From IMG/VR virus record IMGVR_UViG_3300030090_002465, positions 1-44,070 of that record: 44,070 bases of DNA; one strand, given 5' to 3'. Made by a program: the position numbers and the translations under genes. This DNA comes from a virus. Position 1 is the first letter of the stretch; the number at the start of each line of letters is the position of its first letter. Below the pieces are notes generated by a model that saw only the letters and a program-made list of their open reading frames with translations, did no database searches and was not told the DNA's origin. This document shows positions 2,130-5,405 of the stretch, piece by piece.

Positions 2130-2142
2130 ATTTCCTTTCTTT

Positions 2143-2171
2143 TTGACAATCTATATTAACATATTTATATA
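2143..2171 (+). promoter_or_regulatory. Candidate sigma70 promoter, rightward
   Basis: TTGACA at 2143-2148 is separated by 17 bp from TATATA at 2166-2171. It points into the gene-poor region and would produce a long leader before the small gene at 2587. The surrounding sequence is very AT-rich, so a chance match is possible. Confidence 0.4.
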
Positions 2172-2286
2172 TTTATAGGAAGTTTTCTTTCTCTTTCTCG
2201 CTATATTTCTTTTGTTTTGGTGGTCTGGGTCGCCAGGTCCTGCAGCTTCCTGGTTGATTTGGGGGGATTCTTGGGGGATTATATAC

Positions 2287-2361
2287 CTTGTAACACACAA
2301 CCTTATATTCGTAAGCGACATTGTTAAGAGGTTCGTTAGCGATAGTATTATGTGTTACAAG
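2287..2361. repeat. 11 bp inverted repeat enclosing two operator-like direct repeats
   Basis: CTTGTAACACA (2287-2297) is an exact reverse complement of TGTGTTACAAG (2351-2361). Inside lie two near-identical 13-mers, TTCGTAAGCGACA (2308-2320) and TTCGTTAGCGATA (2332-2344), 24 bp apart and nearly symmetric about the centre. This looks like a protein-binding site or a replication-initiation element rather than a terminator, since the loop is 53 nt and no T-tract follows. Confidence 0.5.
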
Positions 2362-2586
2362 CTACAAGATGGATTAGCTTTCGGTCATATTCTCAACAGG
2401 GCTGTAATGAATATTCCTACTTGCTAATCTATCTCTAACTTCTAAATACTTATTACCTATTCAAACTATCAAAAAATAATTCGTATTTATTAGTATGTTT
2501 CTAACTATACTACGCCTGGATTTTATGCAAACAGTTGTTTACATTATATTTTATATCTAGTATTCTTAATATTGGAAAGGCAACAT

Positions 2587-2733
2587 ATGTGCAGTATTTG
2601 TGGCAAAAGATTGCGAGAAGTTGATGACAAACATAATGCTCAACCTGTCGCTCTCGGTCATGCTTGTGATTATTGTAATCTCAATGTCGTGATTCCTACC
2701 AGGATTGTCAATTTACAGAAGTCTAATGCGTAA
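2587..2733 (+). CDS. Small conserved zinc-finger protein (48 residues)
   Basis: It begins MCSICGKRLREVDD and has CSIC at residues 2-5 and CDYC at 27-30, followed by NLNVVIPTRI. I recall very similar short proteins (C-x2-C, Asn-Ala-x-Pro-Val, C-x2-C-N, VV-x-P-x-RI) in many marine phages, so the gene is well supported despite its length. The ribosome binding site GGAAAGG sits 7 nt before ATG 2587. It is the only convincing gene inside the 1.5 kb region between the divergent operons. The function is unknown; a small regulator or host-interaction protein is plausible. Confidence 0.8.
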   Translation: MCSICGKRLREVDDKHNAQPVALGHACDYCNLNVVIPTRIVNLQKSNA

Positions 2734-2831
2734 GATTCCCTCTTATAGTACGTAGACACAAGGTGTTGAAGGGTTAGTTTATTGATTTCTTGCCCTTCTC
2801 CACCTTTTTTTGTGCCTTCTCTCTCTATCCT

Positions 2832-2843
2832 TCCAGGATTTAA
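2832..2843 (+). repeat. Degenerate copy of the CCAGG-centred motif
   Basis: TCCAGGATTTAA resembles the longer motif TCCAGGTATRTTTAA found at 2912 and 3617. Confidence 0.4.
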
Positions 2844-2911
2844 CCCTGATGCAGCGCTTTCTGGGCTTCGCATCTCCTGATTTGACCCAGATTATCACCA
2901 GATTACTGTTC

Positions 2912-2926
2912 TCCAGGTATGTTTAA
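2912..2926 (+). repeat. 15 bp repeat TCCAGGTATGTTTAA
   Basis: It matches 3617-3631 (TCCAGGTATATTTAA) at 14 of 15 positions. The second copy lies immediately upstream of the methyltransferase start, so this may be a shared operator or promoter element. A further partial match starts at 3039 (ACCAGGTAATTTT). Confidence 0.5.
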
Positions 2927-3284
2927 CTACTATATCCTCGTATTTAATCAAAATGGGTACACTACATGATGTATGTGAGTCAAAACAACACAATATATAG
3001 TATGTATGTAGCGTGATAGGAAATCTATGTGTTGCTCAACCAGGTAATTTTCACTGGCTTTCAAGGCTGGGGTTCAATGCGGCGCGGCGTCTCATATATA
3101 TGTACAGTACCTAGAAATATGCTGTTAACTAGGGGTACAATATGTAGTGGTACTAGATATAGTGGTGTACCTTATAAAGGCTAGTAAGAGGTGTTTTCTT
3201 TATGTTGGCTGTTATTTAACTAAGTAAAAATGGAAAGTACAGCTAACCCTGTGTCATCCCTCCCAACCGATAACAAATCTGTTT

Positions 3285-3407
3285 ATGACTTATTTTATAT
3301 ATTATGAAGTAATAGGCTTTGACCCTAGTTATGATGGTCCTGCTAGTCCACTTTATTTAAAGTTTATAATCAAGAATCCTTTTCTAAAAGCAGGAAGAAC
3401 ACTCTGA
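3285..3407 (+). CDS. Possible 40-residue protein, no ribosome binding site
   Basis: The open frame MTYFIYYEVIGF continues to a tail with NPFLKAGRTL and has a protein-like composition (DPSYDGPASPLYLKF). No Shine-Dalgarno sequence precedes ATG 3285. An overlapping frame from ATG 3230 (25 residues, MESTANPVSSLP) ends inside it and could be the displaced N-terminus of the same ancestral gene. It could be a small gene, a decayed gene or chance. Confidence 0.3.
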   Translation: MTYFIYYEVIGFDPSYDGPASPLYLKFIIKNPFLKAGRTL

Positions 3408-3516
3408 TTGTTAGGATAAATTTAGCACAGATGTTTCCTTTTTACAAGTTTATGTTATTATTGACCCATAGGTTGCAAAAAATAATTCTTTATTCATTGC
3501 ATCCTCCTTTCTGATT

Positions 3517-3570
3517 GAACGACAATATAGGACGCTATATAGCCCTCACGCAAGTGAGGGTTAGTCGTTT
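3517..3570 (+). ncRNA. Three-way-junction RNA element
   Basis: Three perfect helices nest without conflict. P1 pairs GAACGAC (3517-3523) with GTCGTTT (3564-3570), 7 bp with one G-U. P2 pairs ATATAG (3525-3530) with CTATAT (3535-3540) around loop GACG. P3 pairs CCCTCAC (3543-3549) with GTGAGGG (3554-3560) around the GNRA tetraloop GCAA. Junction strands are 1, 2 and 3 nt. An outer helix TCCTT (3506-3510)/AAGGA (3571-3575) could extend P1 across a 6-nt internal loop. It lies about 70 nt before the methyltransferase start, so it may be a leader regulator, a separate small RNA or an origin structure. No known riboswitch core is recognised. Confidence 0.55.
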
Positions 3571-3583
3571 AAGGAAACCTAAG

Positions 3584-3599
3584 AAAAAAAATTTTTTTT
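3584..3599. other. A8T8 tract
   Basis: Eight A followed by eight T form a perfect 16 bp palindrome. A-tract DNA of this kind is intrinsically bent, and the T8 run could also give a U-tract downstream of the three-way-junction RNA, although it is separated from the last helix by more than 10 nt. Confidence 0.5.
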
Positions 3600-3616
3600 A
3601 CAGCCTACTTTTGGAA

Positions 3617-3631
3617 TCCAGGTATATTTAA
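3617..3631 (+). promoter_or_regulatory. CCAGG-centred repeat overlapping the methyltransferase start region
   Basis: TCCAGGTATATTTAA is the second copy of the 15 bp repeat and ends 8 nt before ATG 3639. No Shine-Dalgarno sequence precedes that ATG. The AT-rich part (TATATT at 3623 or TTTAAT at 3627) is placed so that, as a -10 element, transcription would start within a few bases of the ATG (a leaderless or very short leader). C5 methyltransferases often repress their own promoter, so an autoregulatory operator is an attractive but unproven reading. Confidence 0.4.
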
Positions 3632-3638
3632 TAATGCA

Positions 3639-5339: not shown

Positions 5340-5405
5340 ATGCCCTACACGAAAAAAGGAAAGAAAAAGAGATACCCTTCTAAGAGGATTAAGAAGAACT
5401 CTTAG
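5340..5405 (+). CDS. Very basic 21-residue peptide
   Basis: The sequence MPYTKKGKKKRYPSKRIKKN is almost entirely Lys/Arg/Pro. An excellent Shine-Dalgarno sequence (AAAGGAGATAAT) precedes ATG 5340, which argues for real translation. It is the first frame after the terminator hairpin and leads into the terminase block. Nucleic-acid binding is the obvious inference; no family is recognised. Confidence 0.65.
   Translation: MPYTKKGKKKRYPSKRIKKNS

Follow-up and report, generated by a model that had tools for sequence, protein, structure and literature searches.

What is the branched hairpin that lies ahead of a methyltransferase gene in an uncultured marine bacteriophage (IMGVR_UViG_3300030090_002465), and does it represent a functional RNA or a chance fold? 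The window referred to throughout is the whole stretch of DNA that was analyzed (44,070 nt; positions 1 to 44,070 of that record). The initial annotation had described three stems, a GNRA loop, and a following A8T8 tract at this place, which it thought unlikely to have arisen by chance. The three stems and a GCAA (GNRA) loop are present in the fold of positions 3490-3620, and the element, referred to here as hairpin B (3516-3571, plus strand), is delineated by this fold, by covariation, and by a covariance-model hit. In the fold, it consists of P1 (3516-3523/3564-3571), P2 (TATAG-GACG-CTATA, 3525-3540), and P3 (3541-3549/3554-3562, with the GCAA loop at 3550-3553), all on the plus strand. The 131-nt segment folds at -33.2 kcal/mol compared with a mean of -21.1 (S.D. 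3.3; z = -3.65) for dinucleotide-shuffled sequences, and none of 200 shuffles reached its energy. The distance from the end of hairpin B to the ATG of the methyltransferase (3639) is 67 nt (70 nt in the initial annotation). The description of the surroundings as a region without genes is correct for 2130-3638, yet much of this stretch is conserved, structured noncoding sequence, including ∼500 nt upstream of hairpin B that were found to be conserved by blastn and iterated nhmmer.

Comparison with Rfam, which had been proposed as a check, revealed no family above the gathering threshold: Rfam 15 gave zero matches to the window at the gathering score, and permissive scans of the region and 14 relatives gave subthreshold hits only. 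Among known families, Chlorobi-1 RNA (RF01696) resembles the element in one hairpin (CCUCACGC.AGUGAGG plus an A-run; 26.4 bits, E = 1e-4); we rejected membership, as the gathering score is 50 and the second hairpin of the family is not properly matched. Searches of the window with ARAGORN detected no tRNA, and a blastn search of the intergenic region against phages gave no match. The element was also not found in a search of the open-access literature, including the accessible part of one paper on Actinomarinales, although absence there is no proof of its being unpublished.

We next turned to relatives, which were collected with the methyltransferase (63 loci) and the terminase large subunit (TerL; at least 80 loci) as queries and with a pattern from the conserved upstream block (at least 119 stretches). 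The block at 3231-3440, used as the query, had matches in 153 of 256 locus records, and the downstream sequence was distinct in 98 of these. The hairpin position is preceded in 87 of the 98 by a pyrimidine-rich stretch with UGUUUG, UGAUUG, or a similar sequence at its end. As for the remaining 11, L168, L236, L184, L202, L185, L240, and L207 pass directly into an ORF, the sequence of L170 ends there, L072 and L133 have the hairpin by covariance model, and L134 has a weak covariance-model hit (E = 0.12). Sixty-two distinct sequences of hairpin B were aligned (alignment A1), and the named 16-pair structure was scored over 974 cells. Pairing amounted to 87.5% compared with 72.8% in shuffles, none of which scored as high, whereas structures slid along the alignment were merely 34-50% paired; cells with double changes numbered 129 against 43.5 expected. 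The loop-adjacent pair, for example, occurs as CG (25), AU (16), GC (14), and UA (7). A covariance model of the element (R1) hit the window at 3500-3570 (50.2 bits, E = 8e-11), and the next best hit had an E value of 0.82, indicating a single copy. Thus, the covariance analysis suggested at the outset yielded compensatory changes across the 62 distinct relatives, and relatives that share the flanking sequence keep the stems, with covariation, rather than losing them.

The strand of the RNA follows from the mispairs tolerated in relatives, because G-U cells (95) greatly outnumber A-C cells (14), which identifies the plus strand. GNRA loops were present in 72 of 87 automatic picks (GCAA in 61, GCGA in 8, GUAA in 2, and GAAA in 1); the other picks comprise C-UUCG-G in L232, a flipped TCGC in L130, and 13 others, some of which still contain CUGGCAACAG. 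We conclude that the structure is real, lies on the plus strand, and is under strong selection, that covariation excludes a chance hairpin, and that a selected RNA almost certainly exists here. That many related viruses have conserved the shape, rather than the letters, just upstream of a DNA-packaging gene points to a regulatory RNA of viruses that had gone unrecognized. A DNA-level element (origin, packaging site, or cruciform), or a chance hairpin, would be an alternative, and the position does adjoin the terminase; further, the flipped loop of L130 and the inversion of another hairpin of the region (H1, see below) in L107 and L109 indicate that these palindromes behave as DNA too. We regard this as very improbable given that relatives conserve both the tetraloop class and the G-U pairs, that GNRA was swapped once for UUCG, and that covariation speaks against chance. 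For the origin that had been suggested, we found no evidence; the presence of G-U pairs together with GNRA loops argues for RNA rather than DNA.

The three-way junction, in contrast to the stems, did not survive as the defining trait of the element. P2 is present in the window and its nearest relatives, and most relatives lack it; because L378, L384, and others read TTGAACGACCCACCCTCACGCAAGTGAGGGAGTCGTT, which is the same element minus P2, this arm is best interpreted as an insertion into an internal loop that is itself variable. Own versions of a third arm occur in L068-L070 (ATCG-TAA-CGAT), L071, and L253. Judging from these aligned relatives, the insertion of the third arm is lineage-specific, and the three-way junction of hairpin B is not the conserved feature. 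Nor did the possible outer stem TCCTT/AAGGA stand: it is partly formed in the minimum-energy fold and unsupported by relatives, and we rejected it because its TCCT strand is the 3′ arm of a preceding hairpin (hairpin A, see below) and the letters after hairpin B are unconserved. The pRNA of phage phi29 has a three-way junction near a packaging gene and interlocking loops, and the reported element shares with it a three-way junction near such a gene. A packaging RNA of this kind would suit an element that adjoins TerL in one phage group and the terminase small subunit (TerS) in another; it is nonetheless exceedingly unlikely, with a junction that is not conserved, loops (GCAA, GACG, and UUCU) that are not complementary and so offer no loop pair for ring formation, and a TerL that belongs to the large-terminase family.

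The conserved three-way junction of the region is a different RNA, which we call C-RNA (3238-3411, plus strand), as its alignment of 47 distinct sequences covaries. On the plus strand, C-RNA folds into a junction (CC.UGUGYCAC/GUGR..CAUGG) that has an inner hairpin, and it also forms a stem, UCCUGCU/AGCAGGA. Pairing was seen in 96.8% of 1126 cells compared with 91.5 in shuffles, and double-change cells numbered 58 against 14.8 expected. A covariance model of C-RNA (R2) scores 169.6 bits in the window and matches 43 of the 80 terminase loci listed, 41 of which also match R1; C-RNA is also found at L146:1248-1422. It has no match in Rfam.

Where does the RNA that contains hairpin B begin? An extended -10 promoter element, TGTTATTAT, is located at 3453-3461 (plus strand) and puts the inferred RNA start near 3468. 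The motif TGnTAnnnT with at least five of six consensus letters was found in 80 of 87 relatives compared with ∼4.1 of 87 dinucleotide shuffles, and TGnTAnnnT on the minus strand in 2 of 87. Folding of the leaders revealed a 5′-terminal hairpin A (AGG.UGCAA..AAUAA-UUCU-UUAUU..UUGCA.CCU; 3470-3505, plus strand, apical loop UUCU at 3486-3489), which is present in 65 of 68 distinct leaders, where it begins near the inferred start and ends right before the linker. UUCU is its commonest apical loop (20 of 67), and loops with three consecutive pyrimidines make up 73% compared with 56% in mononucleotide shuffles, a modest excess. The CU-rich segment CAUCCUCCUUUCUGAUUG (3500-3517, plus strand) consists of CUCCUUU and the conserved UGAUUG/UGUUUG linker. 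In A1, the letters of TG.TTG (columns 13-18) are invariant or at least 90% conserved, whereas CUCC is variable (TTTCCTTTC, CGTCTTCC, and others occur); CUCC/CCUU is unpaired in 49 of 67 relatives and mostly paired in 18. The reported element is, therefore, the 3′ hairpin of a two-hairpin RNA that begins near 3468. In the phage group of the window (group 1), a U-run directly after hairpin B is absent, so any discrete 3′ end of the group 1 RNA is putative.

The region could also be read leftward as a Shine-Dalgarno (SD) sequence (AGAAAGGAGG) followed by the ATG of a short leader peptide, and an ATG does occur 2-12 nt after an SD-like stretch in 58 of 87 relatives. The predicted peptides range from 1 to 60 amino acids and are not conserved, the excess of G-U over A-C cells and the promoter favor the plus strand, and the loops are of the GNRA type only on that strand. 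We rejected the leader peptide, and a minus-strand feature is very unlikely.

The A8T8 tract had been described as following the element. It lies in a second promoter region before the methyltransferase gene (3584-3628, plus strand), which contains A8T8 (3584-3599), TTTACA, and TATATT (3623-3628), with the spacing in the window judged by eye. TATAnT or TATTAT follows the A/T tract in 45 of 72 relatives, mostly at a distance of 20-24 nt; shuffles gave an expectation of 5.2. Further, in 30 of 87 rows (hand count), hairpin B is followed directly by the start of an ORF of 29-49 amino acids that has two CxxC motifs, and in L118, L106, L112, and others this Cys-rich ORF, which has no obvious SD site, separates hairpin B from the A/T tract. 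Because the promoter motif follows the tract and the small gene intervenes in many relatives, A8T8 belongs not to the element but to the following promoter, which in the window is the one before the methyltransferase; we rejected the view that it is a terminator or is included in the RNA.

The Cys-rich ORF bears on whether the two-hairpin RNA is an ordinary 5′ leader that controls or stabilizes the mRNA of a small Cys-rich protein or of late genes. Its start just after hairpin B in so many relatives, with no obvious SD, would be in keeping with such a role, but hairpin B is kept where the ORF is missing (the window lineage and many relatives), and the second phage group described below has no downstream gene on that strand where examined; we therefore consider an ordinary leader unlikely. 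The two CxxC motifs of the ORF are arranged around H/N-P-Y/F-W; it had no Pfam match and matched PHROG only at an E value of 0.02. After the second promoter, relatives carry a further hairpin leader of the type ACCTAAG-AAAGT-CTTAGGT. This second leader downstream of A8T8 (e.g. in L140 after ∼5320) also contains GTGTA-GAGG-TACAC and appears by eye to covary, and base pairing between its AGG/GGG loops and the CU-rich linker would be possible. Very lysine-rich small ORFs were also observed upstream of TerL, at 5340-5405 in the window and after A8T8 in L068-L070 (MPYTKKGKKKRYPSKR.., MPGKKKKKKKR..).

To define the distribution of the RNA, we considered the 43 of the 80 terminase loci listed that have at least 2 kb of upstream sequence. 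R1 hits with E < 1e-3 were obtained in 35 of the 43; the eight loci without one are L071, which has its own variant, L098, L113, L120, L122, L135, L141, and L142, and L120 and L142 carry another branched hairpin, identified by eye. A pattern for the UGAUUG form alone returned 40 stretches, among them 18 new loci, with C-RNA in 16 and terminase in 15; in the five exceptions, the available sequence ends nearby on that side. The position of the RNA is strictly upstream of the TerL gene. A pattern scan of genome contigs gave 118 stretches, approximately the chance expectation for 16 fixed bases, none of them C-RNA-like (best nhmmer E = 0.005). In a phage collection, TerL matched 42 records, among the matches listed mainly Streptomyces phages at <28% identity. 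The viral group with these RNAs consists of uncultured marine phages with only distant kin in phage records.

The same architecture recurs in a second marine phage group, where it looks free-standing. R1 hits were obtained in 15 of the 63 methyltransferase loci (E from 3e-5 to 0.05). All lie on the minus strand in a homologous position; they are one homologous set, and each is weak singly. In L029, the RNA lies between the 3′ end of the TerS gene (phrog_4102, E = 2e-30) and the next gene, both on the plus strand, and inspection of ORFs indicated a gene order like that of L029 in L036, L033, and L377. Nine loci were folded, including L009 of uninspected context. At the TerS-adjacent loci, hairpin A is capped by UUCU (by eye where the minimum-energy fold was ambiguous), the linker reads CUCCUUUUGUUUG or a similar sequence, and a U-rich tail follows hairpin B, whose loop is of the GNRA type. 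A blastn search of the second-group element against phages (E up to 10) gave 51 records, of which the listed ones are short, weak pieces. Common to both groups are the methyltransferase and a small ORF with NPN(W/F)xGDD at its end, which makes an exchange between them plausible. Because the RNA is on the minus strand and both flanking genes are on the plus strand, it leads no gene where examined, and this free-standing antisense placement would speak for a trans-acting RNA.

This placement is also pertinent to processive antitermination, in which the nascent two-hairpin RNA would bind RNA polymerase as HK022 put does, or a boxA-like linker and GNRA hairpin would serve an N-like factor as at lambda nut, so that a long rightward operon is transcribed. 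Lambda nut consists of boxA and boxB, the latter bound by the cognate arginine-rich N protein. The CU-rich linker followed by a GNRA-class hairpin resembles boxA-boxB, although the RNA described here has a long two-part stem and a hairpin A in front, and no N-like protein was identified here. The likeness to put is one of architecture and position: hairpin A begins within a few nucleotides of the inferred start, a second stem-loop comes next, and the whole stands at the head of a rightward operon, and the accessible part of a report on HK022 describes putL as ∼70 nt with two stem-loops just downstream of PL (PMC9378689). In contrast to put, the second-group RNA is free-standing, antisense to its neighbors, heads no gene, and has a U-rich tail. 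Further, the second promoter at A8T8, which lies downstream, would drive the operon by itself. We looked for similarity to put or nut through Rfam scans alone, and we consider antitermination possible but doubtful.

A closer parallel may be the two-hairpin small RNA LhrC of Listeria, in which, according to the part of the report available to us, CU-rich sites in loop A, in the linker, and in the terminator loop bind the G-rich SD region of lapB; RsaE and FsrA, cited there, have UCCC motifs (PMC4132741). As far as that description goes, our RNA is like LhrC in having two stem-loops separated by a pyrimidine-rich stretch and CU-rich sites in the first loop and the linker, and this order of hairpin A, linker, and hairpin B was found in 65 of 68 leaders. 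As regards a promoter and intrinsic terminator of its own, the promoter is supported, and the U-rich tail is present in the second group only. It differs from LhrC in being phage-encoded and position-locked upstream of terminase, in a second hairpin that is capped by GNRA rather than by a CU loop, and in that its targets are predicted.

We tentatively propose, at a little short of an even chance, that the RNA is a trans-acting small RNA that works by base pairing. The transcript, ∼105 nt long, would arise from a sigma-70-type promoter of its own that heads the rightward terminase/structural region. Its exposed CU-rich parts (the UUCU loop of hairpin A and CUCCUUU in or beside its 3′ arm), which match the 3′ end of bacterial 16S rRNA, would base-pair with SD regions of the AAGAAAGGA type and so block translation initiation in trans. 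The best-matching starts in this genome are those of leftward genes, and GNRA-capped hairpin B would serve as a stabilizing module, with a terminator in the second group only. Among the 38 genes of the window, the five best linker:start duplexes are all with leftward genes (p = 2.5e-4, hypergeometric, post hoc), but the best duplex was matched by 27 of 200 shuffled linkers, so its energy is not unusual. Across 17 relatives, SD strength was -6.46 for leftward genes (n = 170) compared with -4.77 for rightward genes (n = 106; p = 7e-4), with loci that are related and ORF calls that are crude; in the window alone, the difference by strand was not significant (p = 0.36). A more elaborate version, which we consider quite improbable, is an early-to-late switch in which the rightward promoter would yield a mimic of the 16S rRNA 3′ end (CCUCCUUUCU, exposed and, in many relatives, repeated in the AGUUUCCUCCUUUCG loop of a neighboring hairpin) that sequesters strong leftward and host SDs, while late genes with a weak SD or none are still translated and C-RNA acts as a partner.

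Of the readings in the initial annotation, a conserved structured RNA is borne out by the compensatory changes, and a small RNA and a cis-regulatory RNA are both still live options. If the RNA is trans-acting, RNA-level control of the phage program would be testable with a construct of ∼105 nt; if it is cis-acting, it may be a new antiterminator. In either case, two RNA families that are not in Rfam occur with very strong covariation at one fixed place in an uncultured marine phage group, and two covariance models are now at hand to annotate these regions. Few phage small RNAs are known to be conserved throughout a large clade.

Two other features of the upstream region were noted. Tandem palindromes ACTAnATnTAGT flanked by GTAC are located at ∼3120-3185 in the window and are kept in relatives; they are likely operator-like DNA sites. 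Hairpin H1, which has a conserved apical loop, AGTTTCCTCCTTTCG, is absent in the window lineage and was seen in 65 of the 98 relatives (e.g. L118 at ∼3185-3250 and L107 at ∼370-435), and its stem covaries, occurring as GTAGG/CCTAC in 43, GTAAG/CTTAC in 17, and GTTGG/CCAAC in 1.
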